Shown here piece after piece: positions 6,380 through 27,696 of a DNA stretch of 64,000 nucleotides. The number at the start of each line of letters is the position of its first letter. The stretch's first letter is position 1. The notes below the pieces were generated by a model, which ran no database searches, had not been told where the DNA came from, and worked only from the letters and a program-made list of their open reading frames with translations. The translations under genes were made by a program, and so were the position numbers. The stretch is from the NCBI RefSeq assembly GCF_000156655.1, contig NZ_DS996841.1, positions 358,821-422,820 on the forward strand, in the 5' to 3' direction. This stretch comes from Holdemanella biformis DSM 3989. Its GTDB lineage: Bacteria; Bacillota_I; Bacilli_A; Erysipelotrichales; Erysipelotrichaceae.

Positions 6380-7620
6380 TTGAAAACATAAGATTATCCT
6401 TTCGAGGTATTTTTGCTCATAAAATGCGATCATTCCTTACAATGCTTGGAATCATTATTGGAATTGCCTCCATCATTGCGATTGTTTCTACAATTAAAGG
6501 AACAAATGATCAAATTGAAAAGAATCTAATTGGCTCCGGAAATAACACGGTAAAAATTTCGTTGTACCAAGAAGATTGGGAATACTCTTTTGATTCCGGT
6601 ATTCCAAATGGAGTTCCAACTGTGTCAAAATATACACTTGAATCCTTAAAAAACATTGATCACGTAGAAGGTGCCACCCTGTATCGTTCTAGACAAAGTA
6701 ATCAATCCATCTTTCGTAATAACACTTCTTTAGATGGTGGATATATCATGGGTGTGAATCAAGACTATTTCTCAATTGCTGGACTCACCATCAAACAAGG
6801 AAGAGGCATTACAGAAGATGACAACATGAAATTTAGACAAGTTGCCGTACTCGATGAGACAAGCGCAAGACTTCTATTCGGTGAAGATGATCCGATTGGT
6901 AAAACGATTGAAATTTCTTCAACACCATTCACCATTGTTGGTGTGTGTGCAGATAAAGAAACTTTTGAACCTATAATGGAAAGTATTGATGATTACCGTA
7001 CATATAATCAGTCTACGGGTTCTAAAGTCTATGTTCCAAGTGAATCTTGGCCAATCTTCTATCAGTTTGATGAACCACAAAACGCATTACTAAAGGTGGA
7101 TGCCACTTCTAATATGACTCGTGTAGGAAAAAAAGCAGCTCAAATCTTAAATACAAATGTTTCTTCTTCCAGTGTTCAATATAAAGCACAAGATTTATTA
7201 AAGCAGGCTAAAGATATTCAAAATCTTTCTAAATCCACAAATGCGATGTTGATTTGGATTGCCGGTATTTCCTTACTAGTCGGTGGTATTGGTGTTATGA
7301 ACATCATGCTTGTAACGGTAACCGAAAGAACGAAAGAAATTGGTCTTAAAAAAGCTATTGGTGCCAGAAAAAAAGCCATTCTATTCCAGTTCCTGACTGA
7401 AGCTGTAGTACTTACTTCGATTGGAGGTATTGTAGGTGTATTAACAGGTATTGGTTTAGCTAAATTAATATCAATATTCAATGGCACTCCTGTATCCATT
7501 AGTATTCCAGCCATGTTGTTATCCGTCTTATTCTCTATGGCAATCGGAATTATTTTTGGATTACTTCCTAGCTATAAGGCTGCAAATCTAGATCCAATTG
7601 AAGCTTTAAGACATGAATAA
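6376..7620 (+). CDS. MacB/FtsX-type ABC permease
   Basis: This 414-residue permease has an N-terminal membrane helix (MRSFLTMLGIIIGIASI), a MacB periplasmic-core domain (about 45-270) and three C-terminal helices. It also carries the FtsX signature stretch GVMNIMLVTVTERTKEIGL and ends with the typical ANLDPIEALRHE. It overlaps the adaptor gene by four bases and closes the operon. With the ATPase and two adaptors it should form a MacAB-like exporter. Confidence 0.92.
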   Translation: MIENIRLSFRGIFAHKMRSFLTMLGIIIGIASIIAIVSTIKGTNDQIEKNLIGSGNNTVKISLYQEDWEYSFDSGIPNGVPTVSKYTLESLKNIDHVEGATLYRSRQSNQSIFRNNTSLDGGYIMGVNQDYFSIAGLTIKQGRGITEDDNMKFRQVAVLDETSARLLFGEDDPIGKTIEISSTPFTIVGVCADKETFEPIMESIDDYRTYNQSTGSKVYVPSESWPIFYQFDEPQNALLKVDATSNMTRVGKKAAQILNTNVSSSSVQYKAQDLLKQAKDIQNLSKSTNAMLIWIAGISLLVGGIGVMNIMLVTVTERTKEIGLKKAIGARKKAILFQFLTEAVVLTSIGGIVGVLTGIGLAKLISIFNGTPVSISIPAMLLSVLFSMAIGIIFGLLPSYKAANLDPIEALRHE

Positions 7621-7650
7621 AAGCTGTAACTTATGTTGCAGTTTTTTTAT
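7621..7650 (+). terminator. terminator after exporter operon
   Basis: The stem CTGTAAC/GTTGCAG with a TTAT loop is followed by seven T residues directly after the permease stop. Confidence 0.7.
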
Positions 7651-8129
7651 TTGAATTCCATCACTGCATATGTATAATAAATGGTTCCACATTCTGTTTG
7701 GAATGTATATACATCATATTTTCCACTAAACCATCCTTCCGCAATCATTCTTTCATTAAGTTCAGCTTGTGCAACCGCATTCACTTCACCCCAAGATGTA
7801 TATCCACCATATGGAACGGTATCATCACATGCGGATACTTGTGGTTGTGGTTGTTCAACAACTGGTTCACTGCTTGGTGTATTATCAACAGGTTGTGTAT
7901 CATAAACAATCGTTTCACTTTCCGTTTGTGGTTGTGGTTGTTCTATATATTCTGTCACTTCATTATTTTCAGTTATTGTTGATAAGTTGTTATCTTCAAC
8001 TTTTTCATCCTGAACTTTTGGATTCTCATTGATGTCATTTACTTCATTTTCTGCAATATTATTACTAGCACATCCTACTAAAATCATTGCGAACATTAAT
8101 AATTTAATCATCAAGCTTTTATTTAACAT
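7647..8129 (-). CDS. small lipoprotein, acidic
   Basis: The chosen start (8129) gives a clean lipoprotein signal ending in LVGC. The longer frame from 8192 overlaps the upstream gene. After the cysteine there is a low-complexity D/E/N/Q/P-rich stalk of about 70 residues, then a compact domain with two cysteines (SACDDTVPYGGYTSWGEV, TECGTIYYTYAVMEF). I do not recognise the domain. It lies outside the membrane and is probably co-transcribed with the next lipoprotein. Confidence 0.6.
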   Translation of the reverse strand: MLNKSLMIKLLMFAMILVGCASNNIAENEVNDINENPKVQDEKVEDNNLSTITENNEVTEYIEQPQPQTESETIVYDTQPVDNTPSSEPVVEQPQPQVSACDDTVPYGGYTSWGEVNAVAQAELNERMIAEGWFSGKYDVYTFQTECGTIYYTYAVMEFK

Positions 8130-8139
8130 ATAGTAACAC

Positions 8140-8421
8140 CTACTTTCCTTCTTGTAACAACCCTTCAATTTGTTCATTAAAAGATTTAACAAATTCTCTA
8201 AAATATTCAGGATCTTTCATGGCATCCTTTTTAATGTCTGCCAGTTCCTTGTCTGAAATATCTAAATAATGATCTATCATCAACATTTCATCTTCTACCC
8301 ATTCGGCATATGTCGCATAATTTTCTTCTTTTATAGAGGATGGTTTTTCATAATTAATTTCTTTATTGGCACATCCTGTAAAGAAAAGTAACACAAACAT
8401 CAAACCTAATACTTTTTTCAT
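8140..8421 (-). CDS. small lipoprotein, helical
   Basis: This 93-residue protein has a textbook lipobox (LLFFTGC at residues 11-17). The mature part is short, charged and helical (EEWVEDEMLMIDHYLDIS region), with no family I can name. It lies 16 bases after the metalloprotease gene and 10 bases before the other lipoprotein, so the three are likely one transcript. Confidence 0.6.
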   Translation of the reverse strand: MKKVLGLMFVLLFFTGCANKEINYEKPSSIKEENYATYAEWVEDEMLMIDHYLDISDKELADIKKDAMKDPEYFREFVKSFNEQIEGLLQEGK

Positions 8422-8437
8422 TTACTATTCCTTCTTT

Positions 8438-9520
8438 CTAATACATTTGATAAATATGATTCATAAAATTATAAATATCCATATTGATCCACATCAATTC
8501 TTTTGGATTATTCACATACATAGCGCCTGCCTCCGCAAAAAATTCATCCGAACCAGAAGCCCCATACTCTCCTAAACAAGACGCGTAATTTTGATACAAA
8601 TATTGCCATTCTGAACTATCTGAAATGCCATGTACTACATATCCATTTCCAGAAGCATAATCGAATAGATGTGTTAGTTCATGAGTGACTGCACTTTTTT
8701 GATCTTTATATATATTTGGATCCATCTGCAAAGTAATGGAACCATCACAATAAGATGCATATGCGTACACTGTGCCTAGTTCATCTGAGTATGTCATTCC
8801 TCTAGATGTAACAATACTTTCAAAATTGGCTGGATCACAAATATGAATAATTTGACAATTATTTAATAAAAACTGCGGCTGCGTTCTAATATATTGATCC
8901 ACATACTTTTGTACATCGCCCACCTTTAGACTATTCCCTGGAATAATATGAATGGTTGGTAATCCTTCATAATATAAATATTCTTCTTCAACAATTTGGT
9001 TATAAGCCTCTTCTTGTTGTCTTAATATCTCATTATATTGTTCTTTAGCCAAAACATAATCCGAATAGGTTGGATTTAAAACAATCGTTAGAGCTAATAC
9101 AATAGCACTTAAGAAACCAAGCTTCGCAAATTTATTTGTCTTCACCTTCTTTTGATTCACATAATTTCTACATTCTAATCTTTGTTGGTACGTAAAATCA
9201 TTAAAATGAATTTCATACGCAACTCTTCTTTCCTCCTCATTCAATCCATCAATTCTTGCTGCTTCTTCATCACTTAATTGATTACGAATATATTCAAATC
9301 GATAGGAATCTAAATCATCCTCTTTGCGATAGAGCAAAACATAGACAAATAGTGCAATTAGAATGGCGACTGTAAAACACAGCTCAAAACTAAACGCATT
9401 GATCAATACTTGATCTAGTACACTTGGATTTGGCGTAACCAACATATCTTGATATCCATACATCAATGAAAATACAACCACAAATACAATCATCGAAAAC
9501 ATCATTTTATTTTTACTCAT
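8438..9520 (-). CDS. membrane-anchored HExxH zinc metalloprotease, copy A
   Basis: Hydrophobic segments lie at about residues 8-25, 45-64 and 135-150 (counting from the TTG at 9526), followed by an extracytoplasmic domain. That domain has the zinc motif HELTHLFDYA (HELTH at about 282-286) and a downstream DEFFAEAG that can supply the third ligand. YYEGLPTIHIIPGNS and RTQPQFLLNNC are shared with copy B at 13565-14593. The substrate is unknown. I chose ATG 9520 because an AAGGA motif sits ten bases upstream. Copy A lies on one side of the CARF-HEPN gene and copy B on the other. Confidence 0.7.
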   Translation of the reverse strand: MSKNKMMFSMIVFVVVFSLMYGYQDMLVTPNPSVLDQVLINAFSFELCFTVAILIALFVYVLLYRKEDDLDSYRFEYIRNQLSDEEAARIDGLNEEERRVAYEIHFNDFTYQQRLECRNYVNQKKVKTNKFAKLGFLSAIVLALTIVLNPTYSDYVLAKEQYNEILRQQEEAYNQIVEEEYLYYEGLPTIHIIPGNSLKVGDVQKYVDQYIRTQPQFLLNNCQIIHICDPANFESIVTSRGMTYSDELGTVYAYASYCDGSITLQMDPNIYKDQKSAVTHELTHLFDYASGNGYVVHGISDSSEWQYLYQNYASCLGEYGASGSDEFFAEAGAMYVNNPKELMWINMDIYNFMNHIYQMY

Positions 9521-9539
9521 AATCAATTTTTCCTTCTAC

Positions 9540-9707
9540 TTAACAATAATTTAAAAGTTCTTTCTTATAATCGAACTTACGCTTTCCCTTTCGCGTATAC
9601 TTCTTCTTATTCTTGTAAATATTTCCACCCTGAATACACGCATCCAAATGCATAAAATTAGGAATTCTTAATCCTCGTACTTCATATCTATAAACATGTT
9701 TTTTCAT
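9540..9707 (-). CDS. small basic protein, 55 residues
   Basis: A short frame with a strong GGAGG site about eight bases before the ATG. It encodes a very basic peptide (KKHVYRYEVRGLRIP, then KNKKKYTRKGKRK) that begins just upstream of metalloprotease copy A on the same strand. The basic stretch could bind nucleic acid, but no family is recognised. The initiation site and coding-like composition make it a probable gene. Confidence 0.5.
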   Translation of the reverse strand: MKKHVYRYEVRGLRIPNFMHLDACIQGGNIYKNKKKYTRKGKRKFDYKKELLNYC

Positions 9708-9867
9708 TTTCTTTTCCTCCTGTTTGTTTGCACTCTTACTATACTATCCATATTGTTCTTTCATAATGGTTTTAGTACATAATTACATGTACACTTTTTA
9801 AGCTTTATTAACCAATTAATCAAATTTATTCAAATTATTTTTAAACACTATTTATAGACCGTATACA

Positions 9868-9902
9868 AAAAAAAGATGATCATTTTTCAACAATCATCTT
9901 TC
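9868..9902 (-). terminator. terminator after CARF-HEPN gene
   Basis: On the minus strand the arms AAAGATGAT and ATCATCTTT flank an A-rich loop and run into eight T residues, a few bases after the stop of the 1189-residue gene. Confidence 0.85.
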
Positions 9903-9910
9903 CTTGGATA

Positions 9911-12900
9911 TTATTTTTTTAATAATACTTTCGCATCTCTCATCAATTTATCTAACACTTCGATATATAATTCAATCCATCTTTTTAAATCGTCTTTTGA
10001 CAACCTGATTGATTCTTCAGCATTAGCATGAGATACTTTATTTCTATACATCTTTAAACCTCTATGTATAAATAACAACTTATAAAACTCATTTACATAA
10101 TCACTATTATTTCTCAACGCCTTCACTAAAGGTATATTAGTTCTTAAATAATATTTATTATATTTAACACTATTATTCCTTCTATCAATATAACCTGTTT
10201 TAATCCCTTTTGAGCAGCTTTGATAAATTGAAAACTTACAACTTTCATAGTATTTCGTAGGACTCATACCATAATTTCTATGATCAAGTATTTCACGTAG
10301 AATTTCATTTTCTATCGCATGTTTACTTTTACCTTGTACAGCCAATTTTTCATCCATACCACAAAAAAATTCTGTATAACCATCAAAATATGACATTGAA
10401 TCCCGTTCTTCCATTTCGCGTTCCACTGTACCTTCTTTTACCACCCTAACCTGGCCATCGCATTCGAATTTAAACAGTGATAAATTAACCCAATCATCAA
10501 AAGCTTTTTTGAAATCATTTACTCTTTCCGGATAAGAGACAATTCCCTCATTAATAAGAGATTCTATCATTACACTTTCAATTAACGTTAGTGTCTGCTG
10601 CAACAAATCCTTGTCTAAGCACCATTTCAATTGTGCCGGTAGATAGTTCCTTTCTATTCCTAAAAGATCATATCGACTCTGTTCCCCATTTTTATTCTCA
10701 ATTTTATCAATATAAACAACATAATTGTTACTAATTAATTGTTTTACTATTCCAAAATTTTTTTCATATGAAACACAATTAACTTTATCAGCTAACTCTG
10801 AAAGTCTGTCTGAGAATAGTCCAGCTTGATTCAATGAAATACCATCTGAAAACATGTTGATTGCATCTACTAAAGCTTGATTTTTTTCATGCAATTCATT
10901 ATCGTTAGATTCTTTTTCCATTTCTTCTTCAACATATTTTATTAATCCATTTGAACGACCAAAAGACAAAAATTCTTGCATACCACCTACAAAATCGTAA
11001 ATATTTGAAGTTCTCTTTACAGATTTAATAGTTCCTATTGAATCTGGATATTCTATTGAATAAACATCTTTCAATTCAATATTATTAATATCCTTTATCA
11101 ACATCAAAATGGCATCTAGAACAGTTGCAGTTTCACGGAATCCACCATGAAGATCAACATATAAATTCACTTTATATTTTTTTGTTAATTGAACCAACTC
11201 TGTCGTAAAATTATATAATGCCATACTTACATCTGCATCATTTATTTCTTTTTCTACAGGAATATCAATTATATCTTCTTTATCGATAATTTTTGAACAT
11301 CGCTCCTGAAAATACTCAAAAGCTGTATATTCTTTATACTCATCTGAATAATATATACTCTTGTCATTACCATTCGTTAAATACGTTTTAGTATTTTTTG
11401 ATTTATACGTATTTAAAGCATATATATAATCTAACTTTTCATTATTTTTAGCCAATTCTTCAACCAACATTTTTGGAACTGGTTCTAACTGATATACATA
11501 CGAACCTTCTGCATTTCCTTGATTAAACAAATCTTTGATGGAATTATCTATCGCATACTTTGAAACTTGTTTTTCTCTTGAAATTATACTCATCGCCAAT
11601 AATAAAACATTCTTTTCATTTGGATTACTCTTAATATCTTTTACCAATTCCTGTAATTTATTCTCTTTTTCTTGTACCTTTAAAAAGTCTGGGTGCATTA
11701 TAGGATCTAATTTTTCTTCAACTTGTTTTTCAACTTCTTTGACATTGATGCTACCTGTTTTTGTCGTAACACGATTTCTTGAATCTACAATTTCTACTTT
11801 GTAGTTTAATTCACCACCATGCTCAGGTGGATCTGTAATAAACTCTTCACCAAAATAAGTCTTGCCTTCTAAACTAGTTTGAATGGATTTAATGGTTGCA
11901 CCACAAGATCCATTCACATGGATTTTGAATTTTAATCGATCTTTATTTGGTTCAAATTCATCTAATTTTGAACCATCTTCCTTCACAACTTCAACCAATT
12001 CAATAACTGATTTATAAGTTTCTGGAATAATAACACGAATATTTGAAGTAGTATCCGAGCCAATAAATTCTCCATTATAATATGTATCTAATCTAAAGGA
12101 TACCTTTCCTTCAGTTTGATTCGGTAAATCATTCGCAAAACTTAATGGAATTGTATATGCATGTTCAAAAGAATTTTTTCCACTATCAACAGAAGCAATC
12201 TTTTCATCTTTTCCATTCCAATTCACATAGATTTCATGCGAAAACTCATTTGATTGACTTTTACCTAAAATTGTGATGATTTCATTTATATCACATTCTT
12301 GTTTATCTACATTGATTTTTGAAGGTGCTTTTTCAATGAATTTAAATGATTCCAACTTATCCTTAATACAATCCAATTTTGTATTCACAATCCACACAAG
12401 ATCATTTTTTGAATTTGAAATGTTTTCCAACAAGCAATCTAAAGAAGCTTTTGAAGTTTCTTCTTCTAAATCCAAATCATCCAATCCTTTGACAACAATC
12501 AATCCATGTTGATTTTGAAGATTATCCATTTCAATCAATTTTCTAACATCGACTTCTTCAACAAACGTTGAATAAATGACATCATAATTTTGAGAATTTA
12601 AAAGTCTTGCGTAATCTCTCGCAAAATCTTTAACTAAAGAATCATTATTCGTTTCAATACATAAGTTATACGTATTTCTTGAAGCGTCATGCTCTTTATT
12701 GGTCTGGACAAGATTCAAAATTGTTTTAATACTTGTATACTTCGAATATTTATCTTCAATATCCTTTTGAACATCTTCGCTCAATTCTCTTTTCCAATAT
12801 ACTGGAATCGATTCAGGCGTCACATTTCCATCTTGATTTAGTTTCATTGATTGACGAATCAAACGTTTTATTATGCCTTCTACAAAAGCTTCTCCTTGTA

Positions 12901-13480
12901 AGTCTGCCCTATGATAAACGGTACGAATCCATTCTTCATAAGCTGGTAAAAAAGTCTTTTCATCATATGTTAACCCACTATTTTCCAAGGCATAGTCAGC
13001 TCCTGAAATAATTTCAGAAATTGAATATGGCTTCAATCGAATCACAAAATCAAAAGTATTAAAGAAATCATTTGAATATTGTTTGCGTAATACATCCCCG
13101 TGTTCTTTCGTTGTTAAAAAAATCGTAAAGATATGCGAATCCTTTAAATTTTGTTTTAACAATTCCCACTTGTCCTTATTGATTTCATTTTCTTCAATCG
13201 CATCAATCACAACACAATTTATAGTTTTCGTCATCAAATATTGTTTTAAAAATAAAGACAATGGTCTTCTTGCAGGATAAGAAATTAGATTCATCCCCTT
13301 CAAAAGTTCAATGACATTTTTAGAAAACTCCTCCAATTTCAACACATCATCCGATTCAATATATAAACTCATCTGATTTGTTCCACTATTTCTTAATAAA
13401 TTTTCAAGTTCGACGACTTGTTCATGAACTTCCGGATTCAACATGCCCTTAAATACTGAATCCACCATATTATTTTCCAT
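9911..13480 (-). CDS. giant CARF-HEPN effector with AAA-like and Ig-like N-terminal half
   Basis: This 1189-residue protein appears to be a Csx1/Csm6-class ancillary RNase of type III CRISPR. A CARF-like Rossmann domain spans about 615-835 and carries DLHGGFRE at 776-783, resembling the 'DxTHGxR' loop of Csx1-type CARF domains. A C-terminal HEPN domain has RNKVSH at 1146-1151 (the R-X4-H RNase motif). The first ~400 residues look like two degenerate AAA-type modules with no Walker A: VIDAIEEN and FDFVIRLKPYSISEI in the first, GLIVVKGLDDLDL in the second. Two beta-rich Ig-like segments (about 405-490 and 491-585) follow. It has its own promoter and terminator. Binding of cyclic oligoadenylate and RNA cleavage are inferred from the motifs. 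Confidence 0.75.
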   Translation of the reverse strand: MENNMVDSVFKGMLNPEVHEQVVELENLLRNSGTNQMSLYIESDDVLKLEEFSKNVIELLKGMNLISYPARRPLSLFLKQYLMTKTINCVVIDAIEENEINKDKWELLKQNLKDSHIFTIFLTTKEHGDVLRKQYSNDFFNTFDFVIRLKPYSISEIISGADYALENSGLTYDEKTFLPAYEEWIRTVYHRADLQGEAFVEGIIKRLIRQSMKLNQDGNVTPESIPVYWKRELSEDVQKDIEDKYSKYTSIKTILNLVQTNKEHDASRNTYNLCIETNNDSLVKDFARDYARLLNSQNYDVIYSTFVEEVDVRKLIEMDNLQNQHGLIVVKGLDDLDLEEETSKASLDCLLENISNSKNDLVWIVNTKLDCIKDKLESFKFIEKAPSKINVDKQECDINEIITILGKSQSNEFSHEIYVNWNGKDEKIASVDSGKNSFEHAYTIPLSFANDLPNQTEGKVSFRLDTYYNGEFIGSDTTSNIRVIIPETYKSVIELVEVVKEDGSKLDEFEPNKDRLKFKIHVNGSCGATIKSIQTSLEGKTYFGEEFITDPPEHGGELNYKVEIVDSRNRVTTKTGSINVKEVEKQVEEKLDPIMHPDFLKVQEKENKLQELVKDIKSNPNEKNVLLLAMSIISREKQVSKYAIDNSIKDLFNQGNAEGSYVYQLEPVPKMLVEELAKNNEKLDYIYALNTYKSKNTKTYLTNGNDKSIYYSDEYKEYTAFEYFQERCSKIIDKEDIIDIPVEKEINDADVSMALYNFTTELVQLTKKYKVNLYVDLHGGFRETATVLDAILMLIKDINNIELKDVYSIEYPDSIGTIKSVKRTSNIYDFVGGMQEFLSFGRSNGLIKYVEEEMEKESNDNELHEKNQALVDAINMFSDGISLNQAGLFSDRLSELADKVNCVSYEKNFGIVKQLISNNYVVYIDKIENKNGEQSRYDLLGIERNYLPAQLKWCLDKDLLQQTLTLIESVMIESLINEGIVSYPERVNDFKKAFDDWVNLSLFKFECDGQVRVVKEGTVEREMEERDSMSYFDGYTEFFCGMDEKLAVQGKSKHAIENEILREILDHRNYGMSPTKYYESCKFSIYQSCSKGIKTGYIDRRNNSVKYNKYYLRTNIPLVKALRNNSDYVNEFYKLLFIHRGLKMYRNKVSHANAEESIRLSKDDLKRWIELYIEVLDKLMRDAKVLLKK

Positions 13481-13509
13481 ACATATAAACTCCTTTGATA
13501 CTTAAGTTT

Positions 13510-13564: not shown

Positions 13565-14593
13565 TTAATATAATCCCATCCAATTATTCATATAAAAAAA
13601 CAACGATTCATTTTTAGCTTTTAACTTCTCTGGAAAATTCACATAGTAATCCCCGGCATCCGCAAAGAATTCAGCTGGATCATGCGAACTATATTCTCTA
13701 AACAACATTGGATTTTCATTAAAATAATTCATAAAATCCTGACGAACAGAAACTCCCATATACGATGTATATCCATTGGCCATAGAATAATCAAAAATAT
13801 GTGTCAATTCATGTGTAACTGTTTCCTGATCATAATCCGTTAAATTTAATGGAACAAATATATTCATATCATCACTGCTCGCAAAGGCATACGCATCATC
13901 ATCTAAAGACATATCATGTGTTTGTTTAAAATAATTCATATTATTTTCATCACAAAGATTAATCATAACACAACGATTCAATAAAACAGCTGGCTGACTA
14001 CGAATATACGTATCAATATATGTATTCACATCCCCTGTTTTAAATGTATTACCAGACACTACATTAATAGGTGGTAATCCCTCTAAATAAAGAACCTGAT
14101 CTTGAAAAGGCGCATTATAAGCAGCCTCTGCCTCTTTTGCACGTTGCTCTTCTAGTGCAAGTTGTTCATTATATAAAGTTAAACCTTCATCATACGCCAA
14201 CTTTACTGGTTGACTTACAAATATTGCACTTAAAACAATTCCAACAACCAAACAAAGCTTTAAAGGCTTCTTCATCCCCTTATGACTATCCACATAATCA
14301 AGCATCGATCTATATTCAACATTCGAAAGATCTTCCTCACTTTCAAATCCATTCTGATCTAAATATTCCTTTCTCAACTTTTGAATACACTTTTCTGACT
14401 TACCATAAGAAAACACTAAATATAACCCAACTGCCAATAAAGCCATAATAAAACCATACTTAGGATCCATTTGTGTTATGATGGCACGATCCATTAAACT
14501 CAAGTTATTTTCACCAACTAAAGAACCATAGTTTGTGATAAAACCATAAACTAATCCAAATAATGCACTTGAAACAATAATCTTTTTAATCAT
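13565..14593 (-). CDS. membrane-anchored HExxH zinc metalloprotease, copy B
   Basis: This is a paralogue of copy A with the same plan: hydrophobic segments at about 8-28, 48-66 and 115-132, a helical linker rich in E/A/Q, then a catalytic domain with HELTHIFDYS (HELTH at about 265-269) and PAEFFADAG for the third zinc ligand. LYLEGLPPINVVSGN and IRSQPAVLLNRC are shared with copy A. The frame can be read from GTG 14605, overlapping the NERD stop, but ATG 14593 sits better behind the AGGTGG site. It is coupled to the NERD gene. Confidence 0.7.
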   Translation of the reverse strand: MIKKIIVSSALFGLVYGFITNYGSLVGENNLSLMDRAIITQMDPKYGFIMALLAVGLYLVFSYGKSEKCIQKLRKEYLDQNGFESEEDLSNVEYRSMLDYVDSHKGMKKPLKLCLVVGIVLSAIFVSQPVKLAYDEGLTLYNEQLALEEQRAKEAEAAYNAPFQDQVLYLEGLPPINVVSGNTFKTGDVNTYIDTYIRSQPAVLLNRCVMINLCDENNMNYFKQTHDMSLDDDAYAFASSDDMNIFVPLNLTDYDQETVTHELTHIFDYSMANGYTSYMGVSVRQDFMNYFNENPMLFREYSSHDPAEFFADAGDYYVNFPEKLKAKNESLFFYMNNWMGLY

Positions 14594-14597
14594 ATTT

Positions 14598-15389
14598 CTA
14601 TCCACCTATCCCTTCTAACAATTCTGGACAATTCTTTTTATAAAACGCAAACAAATCATAAATTACCATATTCAAATCAATCCCATATGCCTTGATCACT
14701 CGACATAACTCAATAGGCTTCACTCGAACCTGATTCTTCTCCATCACAAACGAATTCAAATCTTCTAATCCATATAAAACATCATCTGCACCCACACTCA
14801 CATCACTAGCCGAAGGAAACACAACTAATCCATTAATAGGTACAGAAAGTTTTCTTTTCTTATTCATTCCAAACAAGATACGCTTCTGGTTTCGCATCTG
14901 CAAAATAGGATTACACATAGTTCTTTCAAATCCATTATTTTTATATTGTTTCCAAACACGATCACTACAATCCCCTTCAATTAAACCCTTATGATTCTTC
15001 ACTTCCACAACATACATTCCATAAGGACTCATCACTAAAGCATCTACCTCCGAACGATTCTCACCATAAGAAACAGGAACATTTGTCGCCACAACATATT
15101 CATTTGGCAATTGACGCAACATATCAAACACCCTATTTTCTCCACTTACTCCACTAGCCAAAATTCCAGCCTCATTCATCACATTTCCATGTTTATACAT
15201 TAAATACACTAAGCTCAACACACCAAAACCAATCACACAAAAAGACACTACAGAAAACGGAACCATCATCACACAAACAATCAAACCCAAAGTCAACAAA
15301 ATACCCATATTACGAACACTACGAGCCTCTTTCACTAAAACATCATATTTATCTTTATTTTCATTTCGATTATGAAATACATAAGCCAT
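14598..15389 (-). CDS. membrane protein with NERD nuclease-related domain
   Basis: Two hydrophobic segments (about 28-45 and 49-68) are followed by a NERD domain at about 80-190: GVSGENRVFDMLRQL, a central SEVDALVMSPYGMYVVEVKNHKG and PILQMRNQKRIL. The D and the ExK of that stretch are the PD-(D/E)xK-like residues that suggest nuclease ancestry. NERD proteins are mostly uncharacterised. It heads a two-gene unit with metalloprotease B, next to the end of array 1. A link to nucleic-acid defence is possible but unproven. Confidence 0.75.
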   Translation of the reverse strand: MAYVFHNRNENKDKYDVLVKEARSVRNMGILLTLGLIVCVMMVPFSVVSFCVIGFGVLSLVYLMYKHGNVMNEAGILASGVSGENRVFDMLRQLPNEYVVATNVPVSYGENRSEVDALVMSPYGMYVVEVKNHKGLIEGDCSDRVWKQYKNNGFERTMCNPILQMRNQKRILFGMNKKRKLSVPINGLVVFPSASDVSVGADDVLYGLEDLNSFVMEKNQVRVKPIELCRVIKAYGIDLNMVIYDLFAFYKKNCPELLEGIGG

Positions 15390-15494: not shown

Positions 15495-16419
15495 AAATCA
15501 ATCCTTTACAAGTATCATATTTCCCTGGAAAACTATAGAGCTTGGCAGAATTAACTGCTGGTGTCGATCCTTTATAAGTATCATATTTCCCCAATAGAGG
15601 GCATGATTTTATCAGATTATCACATCCAAGTGTCGATCCTTTATAAGTATCATATTCCCCCCCTACAATTAAATCATAGATTCTATACTGTTCGAGTGTC
15701 GATCCTTTATAAGTATCATATTTCCCTGAACCACTTTCATGGATACGCCGCTAAGCGGTAAGAGGTGTCGATCCTTTATAAGTATCATATTTCCCATTGC
15801 TAAGTTTGGTTGTTATCATGGAGAATATATTTTTAAGTGTCGATCCTTTATAAGTATCATATTTCCCAGAACTTTGGGATACACAATATGATGCTTTAGT
15901 ACTTGTGTCGATCCTTTATAAGTATCATATTTCCCATACGAACGTATCCTAAAGGAAGGAGACTTTGTAGAGTGTCGATCCTTTATAAGTATCATATTTC
16001 CCATAGATTTTCATCGCATATACCGCCAGAAGGCGAAGAGAAAGTGTCGATCCTTTATAAGTATCATATTTCCCTAGGGTTCAAACCGAGAATCGTAGCT
16101 GTAGGTATTTGCAGGTGTCGATCCTTTATAAGTATCATATTTCCCTTTTTCTGTTTTTTATGATGCGATACGTGCCAATTAGTGTCGATCCTTTATAAGT
16201 ATCATATTTCCCATTACAAACATTAAAAGAGTTGTTTTTTCAAGGAGAAGCAGTGTCGATCCTTTATAAGTATCATATTTCCCATTTAGATTTAACAAAA
16301 TTAATGAAGGCTCTAGAGGGTGTCGATCCTTTATAAGTATCATATTTCCCTTGTTTGATTATGACCCTTGCTGTTCTGATTCTAACATGTGTCGATCCTT
16401 TATAAGTATCATATTTCCC
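15495..16419 (-). CRISPR. CRISPR array 1: 14 repeats, 13 spacers
   Basis: 31-base repeats begin at 15495 (decayed), 15561, 15630, 15696, 15765, 15837, 15905, 15972, 16044, 16115, 16182, 16253, 16320 and 16389. Plus-strand repeats start GTGTCGATCC and end CATATTTCCC; the copy at 15630 has a T-to-C change near its end. Spacers are about 35-41 bases. The decayed copy is at the left and the conserved leader at the right, so the array is read on the minus strand. The crRNA 5' tag would then end ATCGACAC. At position 26 (plus strand) the repeats have T where array 2 has G. Confidence 0.98.
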
Positions 16420-16565
16420 CTTACTAAATATAGCACATTTTGGGCTTTAGTTGATAAAAATATTGAAAAATGGCTGAATTTAGCCTATTTTTTTCGACCA
16501 CCTCGGTATTTTGTGGTGTTTTTGGTGCTCAAAATCCTTCAAAATAGGTCGATGGTCGAAAAACG
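16420..16565 (-). promoter_or_regulatory. leader of array 1
   Basis: This AT-rich leader shares long blocks with the leader of array 2, beginning TTACTAAATATAGCACATTT next to the first repeat. It contains an inverted repeat, TTTTCGACCA (16491-16500) and TGGTCGAAAA (16553-16562), and a minus-strand extended -10 (TGCTATATT, 16427-16435) placed to start transcription at the first repeat. Confidence 0.8.
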
Positions 16566-16576: not shown

Positions 16577-18244
16577 TTATTGGTTTACTGGTTTTAGAAT
16601 CATAAAGCCAAGTCTTTGTATTTCTATATTTGGATGGATTGTATCGTTATTGATAATATTGATAAATTCATTTTGCATTGGCAACATTGTATTAAGAGTA
16701 TACTCTTTTGTGTTGACTACGATATAGAGTGTTTCATTTTCATTAGCTCGTTTCATAATTAATAATTCATTATGATGGATCCATTCAATGCTTCCTTCAT
16801 TAGCTAATACTGGATGTTCTTTTCTGAGTTTTATTAATAATTGAGTCATATAATAAATGTCTTCATAAGACTCCTTTGGTTCTTGCCAATTTGTTGGTCT
16901 ACGATTATCTGGGTCTGAACCACCTTCCATATATCTTTCAGTACCATAATAAATGGATGGTGTTCCATAGAATGTTAGTAACAACAACAAGCATAGTTTC
17001 ACTTTATCTTTATCATTTTGACAAATGTTACGAATACGTGGTGTATCGTGTGAATCTAATAGTGGCATAGATGATTTTAGTTGTTTTAAAGTATAAGAAT
17101 GCATCAACTCATCTATACTACTTCTATATTTCCAAATATCATGATTTGGATCACACACAAACGCAAGTATAGCTCTAGAAACAGCGTAGTTTGTAACTCC
17201 ATCTAATGCATTATTACTAATCCATTCTGTCGCATTATGCCATATTTCTCCAACGATATATGTTTCTTCTTTATAGTTATGAATATAATTATTCAATCTT
17301 AGTAACATGCCATCACTAATTTCATTGGCAACATCGAGTCTCCATGCATCCACACCTAGTTCCATCCATTTCTTAACAACTTTATTAATAAAATAATCCG
17401 CTGTTTTAAAGTTTTCTGTTTCAAACTTTGGCATAGAACGAATCATCCCAAACATCTCATATCTTAAATGACCCTGTTTATCTTCTTCAATTTTAAACAT
17501 AGGCCAATACTCAGATTTTTTTCGTTTTTCTATAGCATCTTTAAACATTTCATTCTCATCACTACAATGCGTAAATGAAATATCCAACATAACCTTCATA
17601 CCCAAATCATGGGCTTTGTCACACAACTCTTTAAAATCTAATTCTGTTCCCAATTCAGGATCTACCTTCATATAATCAATCACATCATATTTATGATAAG
17701 AGTGTGCATAATAAATAGGATTTAAATACAAACCGTCAATACCAAGTTCTTTTAAATAATCCAATTTATCAATTACACCCCTCAAGTTTTTCTTGAATCG
17801 AGTAGGCATGATTTGATACCAAACTACATTTCCAACCCACTTAGGCTCCTTAAAAATATTAGACTCCGTAATATACGGAATGAAGAACATAGAAAGATCA
17901 TCATCACGATAATTCTTTGTGAATCCACTTTCACTAAACTGCAAACATTCATAGTCATCATAGATTTTAAAATAATACTTTAACCTATGAGATTCACAAG
18001 GAAGTACAACACTAAAATAATACGAATCAAATGTTTCTCCTGTACGCTTCATATCCACTACATAGTTTGGCCAAACTAAACCATTTGAACCTTCATATCG
18101 AATATATGGGTCATTATATACAACTTCAACCCTACGAATATCCTTCCCTGTTTTTAAACGAATACAAACATGACATTGATCAATCAAATCACAATCAATC
18201 TTTTTATAACGCCCATTAATATGAACAATTTCATTCGTTCTCAT
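16577..18244 (-). CDS. GH13 alpha-amylase/cyclomaltodextrinase-like enzyme in the cas operon
   Basis: This 555-residue protein has a CBM34-like N-terminal domain (about 1-120) and a GH13 barrel. The catalytic triad is visible: nucleophile D304 in DAWRLDVANE, acid/base E333 in YIVGEIWHN and D400 in LLDSHDTPR; the barrel motif VMLDISFTH also appears. The length and domain order fit neopullulanase or maltogenic amylase-type cytoplasmic enzymes acting on short maltodextrins. No signal peptide is seen. Its ATG is two bases after the stop of the small Rossmann-like gene, and it is the last gene before the array 1 leader. It therefore appears to be co-transcribed with cas genes, which is odd for a sugar enzyme. 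Confidence 0.85.
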   Translation of the reverse strand: MRTNEIVHINGRYKKIDCDLIDQCHVCIRLKTGKDIRRVEVVYNDPYIRYEGSNGLVWPNYVVDMKRTGETFDSYYFSVVLPCESHRLKYYFKIYDDYECLQFSESGFTKNYRDDDLSMFFIPYITESNIFKEPKWVGNVVWYQIMPTRFKKNLRGVIDKLDYLKELGIDGLYLNPIYYAHSYHKYDVIDYMKVDPELGTELDFKELCDKAHDLGMKVMLDISFTHCSDENEMFKDAIEKRKKSEYWPMFKIEEDKQGHLRYEMFGMIRSMPKFETENFKTADYFINKVVKKWMELGVDAWRLDVANEISDGMLLRLNNYIHNYKEETYIVGEIWHNATEWISNNALDGVTNYAVSRAILAFVCDPNHDIWKYRSSIDELMHSYTLKQLKSSMPLLDSHDTPRIRNICQNDKDKVKLCLLLLLTFYGTPSIYYGTERYMEGGSDPDNRRPTNWQEPKESYEDIYYMTQLLIKLRKEHPVLANEGSIEWIHHNELLIMKRANENETLYIVVNTKEYTLNTMLPMQNEFINIINNDTIHPNIEIQRLGFMILKPVNQ

Positions 18245-18246: not shown

Positions 18247-18606
18247 TTAATACTCCATAAATTTAATAAATTCAAATTCACTTTCACGACGCGTATTCTT
18301 GTTTTCATCCACAAACTCAATCGTTCTTCTCTCGCTTTGAGCTGCAACAACACGAATACCATGCTTCTTCAATAATACAATCATTCTATATGTAAAGATG
18401 AATTCTCCTTGTACCATCACAACCACATCTGAATATTTTTGAATCTTATTAAAATATTCTTCAACCAATTCATCCAATTCTTCACTAGAAATATGTGGAG
18501 AAACAGCCGGAAAAGGTATATCCACTATTTCTCCATATTGTCTAGCCGCTTCTTTTTGTGCTTCAGACCATCTTGTAGATGTATGATTCGATAAGTTAAT
18601 AAACAT
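18247..18606 (-). CDS. small Rossmann/CARF-like CRISPR-associated protein, copy 1
   Basis: This 119-residue protein is roughly half identical by eye to the gene at 27693-28052. Conserved blocks are MFxNxSNH, IVD(I/V)xFPA, the strong VMVQGEF(I/V)FTYR and GIRVV(A/S)AxSER. The predicted beta-alpha pattern is Rossmann-like, resembling the small CARF-type proteins of type III loci. A role binding or cleaving cyclic oligoadenylate is a guess. ATG 18606 was chosen over 18630 because AAAGGAG precedes it and it gives the same length as the paralogue. It follows the cas7-insertion gene. Confidence 0.65.
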   Translation of the reverse strand: MFINLSNHTSTRWSEAQKEAARQYGEIVDIPFPAVSPHISSEELDELVEEYFNKIQKYSDVVVMVQGEFIFTYRMIVLLKKHGIRVVAAQSERRTIEFVDENKNTRRESEFEFIKFMEY

Positions 18607-18617
18607 CTTAAGCTCCT

Positions 18618-20462
18618 TTAAAATTTCCAAACATTTTCGCCATTCTTTTTCTTAAAGTTTTTATTGTTATTGTAAGAATTACCACCATTTACAGCTTGTG
18701 GCAAAGAAATGTCATTCTCTAAAATTTTTGGTAATGCCCTATTAATTCGCATTTTTTCACGAGTATCCGGCATTCTTCTTCCACCATGATTATTTTGGAA
18801 CCATTCAAATCCTTTATCATGATCTGATGTTTTTGGATAACAAATTTCATATTGTTTAGGCACAGACTTTAATCCTGCAATCTTTTCAAATTCTTTCTTT
18901 ACAGAAGGACTTAGTCCAGCACTTTCATAAGTGACATTCGAATAATCATAAGAAGAAACATCATATTTTACCTTATCTTGATCAAATACAATTTTTCTTT
19001 CTTCTACACCACTTACACTACAAGTAACACTACCTAAACCTAATGGTTTTCCCATACCTAGTTTTAAGCCAAGACCATCTTTTCCTGTATTTAAAATATA
19101 AATCAATTGATTCAATTGTTTTTTAGAAATTCCATCAAAATACAACTCCCCATTAAATGTAATTCCTTCTTTAATCGGACGAATTGTTTTATTTAACTTT
19201 GTTCTTTTCACATTATTAAAACTTATAGATTCAGGATGATGATGCCAATAATATTTTCTACCTCTTAAACTACCATCATATAAATGAATCTTGCCCCTCT
19301 CAATATAGTAATCATATGTCCAGAAATCCGCATTTTTAGGTTTAACCAAGTAAAAATCAACATTCGAAATCTTAGGAGAACTCAAATTATCAATCGTTAC
19401 AAAATCCTTTACATAATAAGATTTATTTGAATCAAGTTTTTCAACATACATATCCGAAAAACGAATACGCGAACCCTTCGCATTATCTCCAATCTTTCCA
19501 AATAAATCACAGGCAGGGCACAATTCTTCTTCGCATGGTGTAAACACACCTGCATAATCCGATAAACTTCTACTTGAAACTTCTTTTGAGAATGTGGCTG
19601 GCGCAATACTTACAATATCATTCCCAACGACACTGTAATTAACTGGAAAATATGCTTCCTTATCGCCTTTAATAAACTTCTTAAAGCTGCTTAGATAACT
19701 CTTGTATGCATCTTCATCATTTGATTTAATTGAAGGCTGTTCAATATAAGAAGTCACGATTGCGTCCATCATATTTTTTACTGCAGCTGCTTCCATATTT
19801 TTCTTCACTACTTTGTTACTTGCTTTAAACGCATGGAAATGTTCTTTCCTTACACCAAGTCCCCATTTAATTACATAGCCACATGTATTATAAGCACCTT
19901 CATTTTTAGAAAATTTACGAATCATTCCACGACCATTTGAAGCTTCATGATTAGAAAAATAAATCTTATCTCCATCTTCAAACTTCTTCATCTCTTTTGG
20001 ATGCTTAGCACTTTCTCCAATTCGTATTGAAATTGCTTCTACTAATGATAAGCTGCCATCTTCTTGAATATGTAACAATCCAGGTTTAAATTTAGCACCA
20101 ATTCTTTTTACAGGATAATCATCATTTAAAACCCCCATACAAGAATCGGTTAATGTTTCATATACATTACGAACCAATCCACGCATTTCACTACCAGGAA
20201 CTACTGGTTCATAATATTTTCCACTTACGTTTTTTTCATTGGATAAATCTGTATACGAGAAAAAATCAAAAGACTTATGATCTGCTTCTTTACAGCCAAA
20301 CGCATTATCATTTGATGAATTAGGAATGAACAAAGGTGTTTTAGTTGTGATTGAATAATGAATCACGCCATAATGTTTATCCTCATCCAAATAGGCTTTT
20401 GCCTTTTTGTTTGGAAGAGAAATAAAGTTATATGGATTTACGAAACGATTACTATCTGCCAT
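18618..20462 (-). CDS. cas7: Cas7-type RAMP protein with insertion (TIGR03986-like), type III-D
   Basis: This 614-residue RAMP protein has an N-terminal Cas7 loop with VVPGSEMRGLVRNVYE (about 87-102), matching the 'PGSSlKG' element of Cas7 proteins. A long middle insertion includes CEEELCPACDLFGKIG, a possible zinc-binding cysteine cluster, and GSRIRFSDMYVE. The Gly-rich RAMP loop GLKLGMGKPLGLGSV lies towards the C-terminus. The tail is basic and asparagine-rich. It is the single large 'Cas7-insertion' backbone subunit expected in III-D2 complexes. Its ATG overlaps the csx19 stop by one base. Confidence 0.8.
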   Translation of the reverse strand: MADSNRFVNPYNFISLPNKKAKAYLDEDKHYGVIHYSITTKTPLFIPNSSNDNAFGCKEADHKSFDFFSYTDLSNEKNVSGKYYEPVVPGSEMRGLVRNVYETLTDSCMGVLNDDYPVKRIGAKFKPGLLHIQEDGSLSLVEAISIRIGESAKHPKEMKKFEDGDKIYFSNHEASNGRGMIRKFSKNEGAYNTCGYVIKWGLGVRKEHFHAFKASNKVVKKNMEAAAVKNMMDAIVTSYIEQPSIKSNDEDAYKSYLSSFKKFIKGDKEAYFPVNYSVVGNDIVSIAPATFSKEVSSRSLSDYAGVFTPCEEELCPACDLFGKIGDNAKGSRIRFSDMYVEKLDSNKSYYVKDFVTIDNLSSPKISNVDFYLVKPKNADFWTYDYYIERGKIHLYDGSLRGRKYYWHHHPESISFNNVKRTKLNKTIRPIKEGITFNGELYFDGISKKQLNQLIYILNTGKDGLGLKLGMGKPLGLGSVTCSVSGVEERKIVFDQDKVKYDVSSYDYSNVTYESAGLSPSVKKEFEKIAGLKSVPKQYEICYPKTSDHDKGFEWFQNNHGGRRMPDTREKMRINRALPKILENDISLPQAVNGGNSYNNNKNFKKKNGENVWKF

Positions 20463-20833
20463 TATGATTTCACCTCCTGTAAACGATAATTTGTGATTGT
20501 TAATAAATCTTCATCATTATATTGAATATAATTCACTACATTGACTCGATTTGATGAAGATGTTACTTCTTCATCTAAATTAGATTGAACATATGTTGAT
20601 TCCACATATACATCTTCATGTTCAATGGAATCATCAATCACACATTCAATTTCTTTTAATCTTGACTTGATATAACGATACTCTTTGTTCTCATCAAACA
20701 AATGCATTTCTAATAATTTATCTTCTAAATACGCATCCTTTGTCAATTGATCTTTTGTATATTCCTGAAATACCATTCGATCAATATATAAAGCGTACAT
20801 TATCCCTTTTTCAGGCGCTAAATTAATGTTCAT
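20462..20833 (-). CDS. csx19: Csx19-like small subunit (TIGR03984-like)
   Basis: This 123-residue acidic protein lies between two RAMP genes and overlaps both. The pattern LEDKLLEMHLFDENKEYRYI resembles the 'L.E.rLF....E.rlwR' core of the TIGR03984/Csx19 family, a marker of type III-D loci. It is shorter than most members. The name rests on a weak pattern plus gene order. A divergent Cas11-like small subunit is the alternative. Confidence 0.55.
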   Translation of the reverse strand: MNINLAPEKGIMYALYIDRMVFQEYTKDQLTKDAYLEDKLLEMHLFDENKEYRYIKSRLKEIECVIDDSIEHEDVYVESTYVQSNLDEEVTSSSNRVNVVNYIQYNDEDLLTITNYRLQEVKS

Positions 20834-22091
20834 AATCCATCTCCTTATATTTCACGATAGATGATGCAATGTAAGCATCCTCTTTATTTTCTTCACCATC
20901 AATTGTCAATGGTCCATTTGCTTCAAAAATACCTCTACCAATCGATGTCTGTCCCCCAACAGCTAAGAATCCATTCTGTAAATCTTTAACTGCCAATAAA
21001 AGAATTCCAATAATCCAATCCATATTTGGATTTTCTTTATTTATAGAAAGTTTTAATGTGAAAGTCCCATTCACATATGTCTTTTCCTTATATAAAGCTC
21101 CATTGCGAGCTGAATTTTCAAAACGAGAAATACCCGTTCTAGTCATCTCCAAAGCTTTTGCCCCTTCAATCACCATTTCATCCACAATAACACCTGAAAT
21201 ATGTGCATCTTTACCACTCACAAACCCAAACATTTCATCAATCATTTTATTTGGATATAAACCATAAGAACTATCCTTATCCAATTCCTTAATAATTTCT
21301 TTAATTCGATGACGCAAAGCACCCATGATACTTGTTCCTGGAATGACTGGACATCCATGATCTGTCATATGCTCAAAATCAGGAGCACCTTTTCTTACCG
21401 CATACTTACGAATAGAAATACCACCCTTTAAACGTAACGGAACTTCAATACTTACCATGTGACCTTTTGTTGAATAATCTAAATCATATGCTTTAACATT
21501 TTTCCAGAATGTTTCTTTGAAACAATCTTTATATTCTAAGAAATTATTCTTTGTGAATTCAAGCATCTTAATTTGGTCAATATCAATAATTCCATAACCT
21601 CTTGTTTTATTGCTTCCCAAACGAATCTCTTTTAAATGAATTCCATTAAAGATTTCATTTAATGCACCTACCAACAACTCTTCATTATCCTTTTCACGAA
21701 TCGTTAGTTCAATATAGAAATAGCCTTTTGAATTACCCTGAAGAACTTCAAAATCAAATTTAGCTCCTTCTTTTGTAATCTTGTTATCATCCAAAGCTAC
21801 ACTGTCTCGAATATCATTTTCTACCTTATTGAATTTCAAATCCGAAATGAATACTGGACTCATTTTACCATCTTCATCATTCGCAAAACCAAAGATGTCA
21901 TTTCCATTATTTTTAGATTGAACATACGCTCTAAATGCACCCGCAATTGAACTTCCTGAAATAAATGGTTTTCCATCATAATCACGAAGCACATCACTAT
22001 CTGTCATTCCTTCTTGTCCTGAAGAAACATTCACAGGAGAAACAAACAATAGTTCAACTCTATATACAATTCTTTTTATTACTGAATTCAT
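20823..22091 (-). CDS. cas7: double Cas7 RAMP fusion (Cas7-2x), type III-D2
   Basis: Two Cas7 domains are fused in 422 residues. Domain 1 (about 1-190) has MTDSDVLRDYDGKPF, FISGSSIAGAFR and the Gly loop LGSNKTRGYG. Domain 2 (about 205-395) has APDFEHMTDHGCPVIPGTS, MGALRHR, SARNGALY and VGGQTSIGRG. By alignment with the Csm3 loop holding its catalytic Asp, D31 of domain 1 and D238 of domain 2 are candidate target-RNA cleavage residues. The tandem Cas7 fusion is characteristic of III-D2/III-Dv. It ends 11 bases inside csx19 and starts three bases after the larger fusion gene. Confidence 0.85.
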   Translation of the reverse strand: MNSVIKRIVYRVELLFVSPVNVSSGQEGMTDSDVLRDYDGKPFISGSSIAGAFRAYVQSKNNGNDIFGFANDEDGKMSPVFISDLKFNKVENDIRDSVALDDNKITKEGAKFDFEVLQGNSKGYFYIELTIREKDNEELLVGALNEIFNGIHLKEIRLGSNKTRGYGIIDIDQIKMLEFTKNNFLEYKDCFKETFWKNVKAYDLDYSTKGHMVSIEVPLRLKGGISIRKYAVRKGAPDFEHMTDHGCPVIPGTSIMGALRHRIKEIIKELDKDSSYGLYPNKMIDEMFGFVSGKDAHISGVIVDEMVIEGAKALEMTRTGISRFENSARNGALYKEKTYVNGTFTLKLSINKENPNMDWIIGILLLAVKDLQNGFLAVGGQTSIGRGIFEANGPLTIDGEENKEDAYIASSIVKYKEMDYEH

Positions 22092-22094
22092 TTC

Positions 22095-24125
22095 CTATTC
22101 CCCCGCTTTCACTCTATACTTCAATTCACGAATATATGAAGAATACAACTTGTCAAACTTCTTAGTTTCACTCCAAGAAAGTTTAAAGTCAGCATATTCT
22201 TTCTCTTGAATTTCTTTTTCAATATCATCTAAAACATCCATTGGAAGTTTTTTCATCAAAGAAACACACTTATCTTTATTGGCACTTTCTAATTGTTCAA
22301 ATTCATGCAACATATCCTCATAATTTGACTTTGTTCTAAACAATAAACGCATCTTAGATAGAGCTGGATTTAATTGATCAGAACTCATATGATTATTCGC
22401 AACCACTTCACGAACTCTTTCATCCATGATTTCTTCAAATTCTTTTTCTAACAAAGAATTGATTACTGTCAAATCCACATTTGAATTCTTAATATTCTTA
22501 TGACCAAACGGTTTATATACACAAACACAATCCGTATCTTTTGTCTTTTCTAAAACAACTTCTCCAAAACCTTCAGAAACTCTTTCACCCACAAAATAAG
22601 AATGATTGTAGCTAGCCTTAAAACCAGTATCCGAATGAATTTTCATACAAGAAGATTTAGATAAGGCTGAAAAGATTTGTTTCTTTCTTCTCCAAGTCAC
22701 ATTAAATCCACCAATCGCATTATAAGATAAGAATGGACTTTCAATTTCAATATCATCCACGCCAAAATAGGCATTTAAATAATCCTTCAATACATTTACA
22801 TCGGCCACCAACATACCATTGTCGTTGTATAAAATCACGTCGGAAGCCAATAATAAATCCGCATCATGAATCAATGTCTCTTTATTTCTTGCATCTTCGA
22901 CAGAATCTAAAGTGAAATCAATCTGACCAAATTCACTGTTTCTACCATATCCCATACGAACTTGTCCAAGTTTTGAAACAGAATCCATAATTTGTTTGGC
23001 TGTTTCCCGATTTGCGTAAATAAAGCCTTTAAAAGTCTGTGCCTCACAAATACTAGCCAATTGATAGAATTGTCCTTCCCTACTTGTAGCACGACCAATC
23101 GACTTATCACTAGGACGTTGGTGATGGTATGAAATCTGTTTTTCAACCGACAACACTTCATTCTGATCTGACATATAATCAATATTCGCTGGTGTACGTT
23201 GCTCTTTATCATTATCATTCTTGAAATACATCATATCGACAATTTCCATTTTGCCATCCACATAAGACTGATTCTTGATTTTCTGTAAAGAATTTCTCCC
23301 TGGAAGTGAACGATTTCCATCCAATGAAACATAGGCATTGGAAACCACAATATCATTCATAACCTTTTGGTAGGCATCATTTCCCATACTTCGTGCAATC
23401 AAACCTAAAACCTTACTTCCCACAATATAGTCTTCTGTTTTAGCCTGATTCCCTTGAGCTGATTTACAAATCAATGGAGAATGTAAATGAATCGTATATG
23501 AAATCTTATTTTCATCCTTCAATTCATTTTCTTTAAATAAAACATGATCTACAGATGTAGCTAAACTATTTTCAACCTTGAGTTCAACCAAACCCAAACC
23601 ACGAGTTCTAGATACACCCATGTGTTTTACCATGGAAACTGCATTCTTGAATTCTTCAGCATAATCATTATTTTTTAAATCCACATCTGCATGGAAAATT
23701 AAACCTTTTTTCAAGACACGCAACGTTCTTAAACTATTCTCAATAGCCGTACCCGTATTTGTATCTACAGCGGTTTGTGTTCTTAAATATGTAAAAAGCG
23801 ATAATACTTTTTGTTGATTGACAAAATCAGCCTCTTCAAATTGATTCAATCCATTCACGATTTCCTCATAATCCTTTAATTTCGCATTTGAAATTGTGAA
23901 GGCTGAGGCATCGCTTCCTTCTTTTCCAAAAATCGCATTATAATGTGGCAACAAACCCATTTCATATAGTTCCAAAGCTGCTTCACGAATACATCCCTTA
24001 AGTCGCTTGGCAGGAATATATGGAAGTCCATAATCATCATAAACCACATCTGTATCTACGGTTGTATTGTATACTTCACCTGAGTAGCAACATAAATCAC
24101 TCAGTAATTTAATTGAAATTTCCAT
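22095..24125 (-). CDS. Cas7-Cas5(Csx10)-Cas11 fusion, type III-D2
   Basis: This 676-residue protein has three visible parts. Residues 1-190 form a Cas7 RAMP domain (VDTDVVYDDYGLPYIPAKRL with candidate catalytic D24, GVSRTRGLGLVEL loop). Residues 205-530 form a Csx10/Cas5-like RAMP (IVGSKVLGLIAR, RTPANIDYM, LGQVRMGYGRNSEFGQI). Residues about 550-676 are an all-helical, charged tail like Cas11. The order Cas7-Cas5-Cas11 matches the fused subunit of the III-Dv complex studied in Synechocystis. The tripartite reading is from motifs and length; an ordinary large Csx10 is the alternative. Confidence 0.75.
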   Translation of the reverse strand: MEISIKLLSDLCCYSGEVYNTTVDTDVVYDDYGLPYIPAKRLKGCIREAALELYEMGLLPHYNAIFGKEGSDASAFTISNAKLKDYEEIVNGLNQFEEADFVNQQKVLSLFTYLRTQTAVDTNTGTAIENSLRTLRVLKKGLIFHADVDLKNNDYAEEFKNAVSMVKHMGVSRTRGLGLVELKVENSLATSVDHVLFKENELKDENKISYTIHLHSPLICKSAQGNQAKTEDYIVGSKVLGLIARSMGNDAYQKVMNDIVVSNAYVSLDGNRSLPGRNSLQKIKNQSYVDGKMEIVDMMYFKNDNDKEQRTPANIDYMSDQNEVLSVEKQISYHHQRPSDKSIGRATSREGQFYQLASICEAQTFKGFIYANRETAKQIMDSVSKLGQVRMGYGRNSEFGQIDFTLDSVEDARNKETLIHDADLLLASDVILYNDNGMLVADVNVLKDYLNAYFGVDDIEIESPFLSYNAIGGFNVTWRRKKQIFSALSKSSCMKIHSDTGFKASYNHSYFVGERVSEGFGEVVLEKTKDTDCVCVYKPFGHKNIKNSNVDLTVINSLLEKEFEEIMDERVREVVANNHMSSDQLNPALSKMRLLFRTKSNYEDMLHEFEQLESANKDKCVSLMKKLPMDVLDDIEKEIQEKEYADFKLSWSETKKFDKLYSSYIRELKYRVKAGE

Positions 24126-25932: not shown

Positions 25933-25940
25933 AATAAAAC

Positions 25941-27668: not shown

Positions 27669-27696
27669 ATTATAACCCATGCCCTATGAAAATCAA
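27669..27696 (-). promoter_or_regulatory. promoter of cas6-cas operon
   Basis: Minus strand: -35 TTGATT (27691-27696), 16 bases, -10 TATAAT (27669-27674). It overlaps the stop codon of the upstream 119-residue gene and lies 27 bases before the cas6 ATG. Confidence 0.55.

Follow-up and report, generated by a model that had tools for sequence, protein, structure and literature searches.

A Csx1-type CARF-HEPN effector in a type III-D CRISPR locus whose 622-residue front contains a phage-tail-related pair of Ig-like domains

What might a CRISPR-associated RNase do with 622 residues placed ahead of its sensor domain? The question is raised by a gene of Holdemanella biformis DSM 3989 that lies in a window of 64,000 nucleotides (the whole stretch of DNA that was analysed, from contig NZ_DS996841.1), and which a first-pass annotation had read as a CARF-HEPN effector of unusual length. 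The gene and its parts were delimited as follows.

9911–13480, minus strand: the whole fused gene, 1189 residues (single open frame, ribosome-binding site and coding statistics)
12326–13480, minus strand: orphan alpha/beta segment, residues 1–385, with no recognised relative
11726–12325, minus strand: tandem Ig-like domains, residues 386–585 (DUF859 and PHROG 372 homology)
11615–11725, minus strand: charged linker, residues 586–622, between the end of the Ig match and the start of the CARF match, helical by eye
10976–11614, minus strand: CARF sensor domain, residues 623–835 (PADLOC match; AF2 model with Foldseek)
11135–11155, minus strand: CARF motif DLHGGFR, residues 776–782, read from the sequence, its GG..R conserved in relatives
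9914–10975, minus strand: middle helical region and HEPN RNase domain, residues 836–1189 (Foldseek to Csx1/Csm6; alignment of relatives)
10028–10045, minus strand: HEPN catalytic motif RNKVSH, with R1146, N1147 and H1151

The reading frame was found to begin with ATG and to remain open for 1189 codons in the list of open reading frames, with a Shine-Dalgarno-like AAAGGAG at 13490–13496, nine nucleotides 5' of the start codon. Codon statistics showed a single frame to be coding across the N1, N2, Ig, CARF and HEPN segments, the alternative frames and the reverse strand giving a strongly negative signal, and the chance of 622 open codons at the local composition was put at p ~1e-20. An assembly chimera, in which unrelated pieces had been joined in a metagenome-type genome, is suggested by the single occurrence of the architecture and by the draft state of the genome (44 contigs), but is hardly credible, given that both junctions are exactly in frame, that the coding statistics are uniform and the base composition similar in all segments, and that the gene stands on a contig of 708,572 bases. 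The open reading frame is genuine, with 1189 residues and intact CARF and HEPN motifs, which lie exactly where the first-pass annotation had placed them (DLHGGFR at 776–782 and RNKVSH at 1146–1151). Neither a transmembrane segment nor a signal peptide was predicted in the effector, which is thus taken to be cytosolic. On the 3' side of the gene, an A/T-rich hairpin followed by a T run was seen by eye at 9867–9900, between the effector gene and the second of two protease genes described below; it was not listed by a terminator scan, having too few G-C pairs, and an Rfam RNA search over 7000–30000 returned no match.

The back half of the protein was the part most readily assigned. The PADLOC CARF2-CARF_HEPN profile covers residues 623–987 with an E value of 5.7e-23, and 12 relatives were taken from other genomes for an alignment and a structural model. 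In these 12 sequences the HEPN residues R1146, N1147 and H1151 (R-N-x3-H, of the Rx4-6H type) are invariant, and the CARF GG..R is invariant or nearly so. The AF2 model of residues 621–1189 built from the 12 sequences reached a pLDDT of 61, with the highest values for the strands of the core and for the HEPN helices, and the CARF fold that had been expected for residues 615–835 was recovered in it. Foldseek against the PDB ranked Marinitoga Csx1-Crn2 first (E 2.8e-10), followed by Thermus thermophilus Csm6 and then Sulfolobus Csx1; the TM-scores to Csx1/Csm6 are modest, about 0.25–0.46, and hence fix the fold family of the core and not its detail. By every testable feature the effector appears to be a CARF-HEPN protein, as the annotation had held, of the Csx1 type, and the RNase core is well supported by both sequence and fold.

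The relatives are also considerably shorter. Their CARF-HEPN proteins measure roughly 450–700 residues (450–600 in the nearest ones) against 1189 here, those with a continuous frame start at the CARF domain or shortly before it, and nothing resembling residues 1–600 was found in any of the 12 relatives' loci. A scan of IMG/VR yielded no CARF relatives. The effector sits on a long branch of the CARF tree, which left the query unplaced, so that its ligand specificity could differ from that of its kin. A second, plain CARF-HEPN relative of 493 residues is encoded in the same genome about 100 kb away.

The surroundings of the gene are those of a type III-D CRISPR system, with the following features.

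18247–18630, minus strand: Csx20 ring nuclease, copy a (PADLOC Csx20, E 2.2e-34)
27693–28052, minus strand: Csx20 ring nuclease, copy b (PADLOC Csx20, E 5.1e-29)
24140–25660, minus strand: Cas10d without an HD domain and with an AGDD palm motif (PADLOC Cas10d, E 3.3e-113; motif compared with relatives)
18618–24125, minus strand: type III-D complex genes Csx10/Cas5, Cas7, Csx19 and Cas7 (PADLOC and NCBIfam)
25657–27642, minus strand: Cas2, Cas1 and Cas6 (profile matches)
15495–16437, no strand: CRISPR array 1, 14 repeats, between the cas operon and the effector gene
28195–28859, no strand: CRISPR array 2, 10 repeats

The operon in the window thus comprises Cas6, Cas1, Cas2, Cas10d, Csx10, Cas7, Csx19 and Cas7. 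Orthologous III-D operons, with Cas10d proteins 48–49% identical, are present in two of the relatives' loci (L054 and L055), where the genes run Csx20, CARF-HEPN, Cas6, Cas10d, Csx10, Cas7, Csx19 and Cas7; a CARF-HEPN protein is therefore the expected effector of this III-D system. In relatives the CARF-HEPN gene is inside the cas operon, whereas here it is placed past array 1. Type III genes accompany the homologues in at least nine of the 12 relatives' loci, and a tenth (L058) has Csx20. The palm motif of Cas10d reads AGDD instead of GGDD, the III-D relatives having AGDD, SGDD or AGDE; both acidic palm residues and the GDD are kept, and the HD domain is absent, as it is in the relatives. Csx20 is a ring nuclease specific for cA4 and occurs in strong association with Csx1 (PMC12409355), and the presence of its genes nearby makes cA4 the likely ligand. 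By analogy with its families, the effector is most likely a dimer that is activated by cA4 and thereby switched on as an RNase.

Two Csx20 genes within one type III-D locus (18247–18630 and 27693–28052) form an observation in their own right; more than one ring nuclease was recorded in only about 4% of the ring-nuclease-positive loci surveyed (PMC12409355). Elsewhere in the genome is another type III locus (L107, G000:C39:252000-271000), III-A-like, in which a Cas10 with HD and GGDD is accompanied by its own Csx20 and by the plain 493-residue CARF-HEPN protein mentioned above, and the two cOA systems may share effectors.

The front half proved to be of two kinds. Residues 386–585 matched the Pfam family DUF859 (siphovirus protein) at E 5e-15 and PHROG 372 (tail protein) at E 2.7e-23, and hhalign against a family profile built without the query gave 99.4% and E 9.5e-22 for the same residues. 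A tblastn search with this stretch retrieved 65 phage records, mostly of Streptococcus phages (best E 8e-9), labelled there as proteins of the tail or baseplate or as minor structural proteins; tail-type proteins from the family and the order to which the bacterium belongs contain the pair as well. The effector has both domains, arranged in order, and keeps the conserved motifs. Residues 386–585 are clearly an Ig-like pair homologous to siphovirus tail proteins; of the front proposed by the first-pass annotation, two AAA modules followed by two beta-sandwich segments, it is the beta-sandwich part that stood, now with a phage-tail identity. Identity to the nearest relatives found is 31% or less, from which the capture is judged to be old. 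Related heads of about 130 residues precede the Ig pair in 16 of 20 relatives, three query heads included, and residues 1–385 matched none of the heads of the phage relatives; the effector thus contains a tail domain and is not itself a tail protein. No further DUF859 copy was found in the same genome.

Residues 1–385 gave no match in Pfam, PHROGs, PADLOC or PDB sequences, nor in phages, plasmids, IMG/VR or genomes at the class and phylum levels. Convincing homologues of the front were likewise absent from 273 genomes of the family (queried with the full protein), 316 of the order (queried with residues 1–591), 395 of the class and 295 of the phylum, as well as from 50,697 phages, 72,556 plasmids and three IMG/VR scans; the best chance matches, to a DHH phosphoesterase-like protein, the ClpB lid and SbcD, were weak and mutually unrelated. 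Among everything searched, the 622-residue front is unique to one genome.

AF2 without an alignment gave residues 1–392 a pLDDT of 36, with a low-confidence order of helices and strands that is alpha/beta and loosely AAA+-like, and it is this order that favours the AAA modules lacking Walker A proposed in the first-pass annotation. No AAA family match was obtained for residues 1–400, however, and hhalign against FtsH, Lon and RuvB gave at most 2%, the same as shuffled sequences, the positive control with RuvB giving 96%; a degenerate AAA+ domain too diverged for detection from a single sequence is still conceivable. A P-loop is absent from the sequence, and no catalytic motif was recognisable in the front. 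Two further candidates, scoring at the level of shuffled sequence, were rejected at the sensitivity of these comparisons: a second CARF domain in residues 1–385, in a tandem-CARF, Can1-like arrangement (hhalign at most 1%, against 99.9% for the known CARF), and a NACHT-associated inactive REase (PF22722; the best Pfam lead, hmmscan E 0.041, not upheld by hhalign). Also rejected was an internal duplication of residues 30–160 and 260–392, the score of which was reached in 64 of 1000 shuffles and is not significant.

The same annotation had suggested that the AAA modules and the Ig-like segments could make the protein a signal-gated machine with a protein partner, perhaps the membrane proteases, the genes of which stand on both sides of the effector gene and on the same strand.

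13565–14605, minus strand: metalloprotease with three transmembrane segments, HELTH at residue 265; a neighbour, outside the system on present evidence
8438–9526, minus strand: paralogous metalloprotease with three transmembrane segments, HELTH at residue 282; likewise a neighbour outside the system on present evidence

From the K/R-rich second loop (topology by eye, from hydropathy), the catalytic domain of both is predicted to be extracytoplasmic, on the other side of the membrane from a cytosolic effector. Relatives of the proteases were detected in three other genomes of 145; neither of those with readable surroundings (L104 and L105) lies near CRISPR genes, and no such proteases were found near the 12 CARF relatives. 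The proteases were accordingly rejected as effector partners and look like unrelated neighbours, and a protease-coupled AAA machine is, on these grounds and those given above for residues 1–400, very unlikely.

The presence of so large a front calls for an explanation. The account put forward here, with moderate confidence, is that the protein is an ancillary Csx1-type RNase of the III-D system, most likely activated by cA4, bearing a non-catalytic arm for binding or scaffolding. On encountering phage RNA, the crRNA complex would prompt Cas10d to make cyclic oligoadenylate, most likely cA4, and the ligand would bind across the CARF dimer and switch on the HEPN RNase, with the two Csx20 ring nucleases removing the signal. 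The 622-residue front would be a cytosolic arm, non-catalytic and working by binding, that sets the assembly partners or the location of the RNase dimer, and the Ig pair, probably an old acquisition from the tail protein of a siphophage, may serve in it as a rigid adhesive spacer. Ig domains of phage tails are regarded as weakly adhesive modules (PMC10721106). The role of the arm is inferred, the front being explained most economically as a binding arm.

The main rival, considered unlikely, is that an ordinary cA4-activated Csx1 merely tolerates a neutral front left by an old, phage-derived recombination. In its favour, all 12 relatives do without the front, which is also absent from the other genomes of the order searched, and Ig domains are known mobile modules according to a passage of PMC10721106 that cites Fraser 2006. 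A neutral passenger accords poorly, however, with some 620 codons that are still open and host-like in usage and with an Ig pair that is at most 31% identical to its phage relatives and yet keeps the core motifs; together these suggest long retention under constraint.

Structural proteins of phages act as triggers for other defence proteins, and the direct fusion of a pair so clearly related to phage tail proteins to a toxic RNase invites the further thought that the Ig pair serves to bait or sense a partner from among the structural or assembly proteins of a phage, the HEPN domain staying off until both cOA and the partner are engaged. This is quite unlikely: cOA alone controls the known Csx1 enzymes, and with a similarity of 31% or less it is uncertain that the interface for the original partner has been kept. 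The strict form of the idea, in which the cOA alarm does not license the RNase unless the tail-derived Ig pair recognises a structural or assembly component of a phage at the same time, is a long shot; if true, a single molecule would combine RNA-guided immunity with immunity by protein recognition.

Set beside known systems, the preferred binding-arm effector resembles the Csx1 RNases of Marinitoga (Csx1-Crn2) and Sulfolobus islandicus in its CARF-to-HEPN order, motifs and predicted fold, a type III locus and a Csx20 partner also being common to both, and differs in the 622 extra residues before the CARF domain; known fusions of Csx1, such as Csx1-Crn2, carry a ring nuclease, whereas the effector here carries phage-tail domains. 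With the DUF859/PHROG 372 tail proteins, for example those of Streptococcus thermophilus and S. suis phages, it shares the tandem Ig pair, its order and its motifs, but lacks the head of about 130 residues and has a C-terminal CRISPR RNase in place of tail sequence. Large fusions are known among CARF families, namely kinase-AAA+-CARF-wHTH and RtcR (PMC4012209), in which a large module is likewise fused to CARF, upstream of it in the kinase family as here; those proteins, however, either combine an intact kinase with an AAA+ ATPase or are AAA+-HTH regulators, whereas the output here is HEPN and the front has no recognisable catalytic motif. In CARF2-CARF_HEPN_CSX20 (PADLOC PDLC01843), CARF-HEPN is again linked with Csx20, which is fused there at the C terminus and encoded here by two separate genes.

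It is in the output domain that known cOA effectors vary, and none was found to carry domains derived from virions or a large front that is non-catalytic. A literature search confined to papers outside subscription revealed no Ig or phage-tail domains in any CARF effector and, in agreement with the first-pass annotation, no described precedent for the domain order; the architecture of a 622-residue front on a Csx1-type effector is new. Should the arm direct or gate the RNase, the collateral RNases of type III systems, supposed to cut indiscriminately, would turn out to be open to aiming or double-locking, and hosts would be seen to put structural parts of phages to new use in immune effectors.

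Several further features of the region deserve mention. An alpha-amylase or cyclomaltodextrinase-like gene (16577–18244), matching the PADLOC GlgB-like family C3a214 at 7.7e-31, lies between the cas operon and array 1, and a NERD-domain membrane protein (14598–15389), which matches BREX PglW and MAD6 kinases in their NERD part and has no kinase, comes directly after the same array. Elsewhere in the genome, locus L106 (G000:C39:314000-328000) has, at 6622–12017, a third CRISPR array, the repeat of which is similar and is seen in translation as repeated VSILYKYHIF; small membrane proteins and another member of the HExxH metalloprotease family are encoded nearby. Tandem paralogues of 1031 residues each are encoded at 29063–32158 and 32316–35411, the product of the former having a CAP domain and long stretches that resemble coiled coils, and they are followed at 35433–36319 by apparently non-coding tandem repeats in units of 300 nucleotides with 94% identity and a partial third unit.
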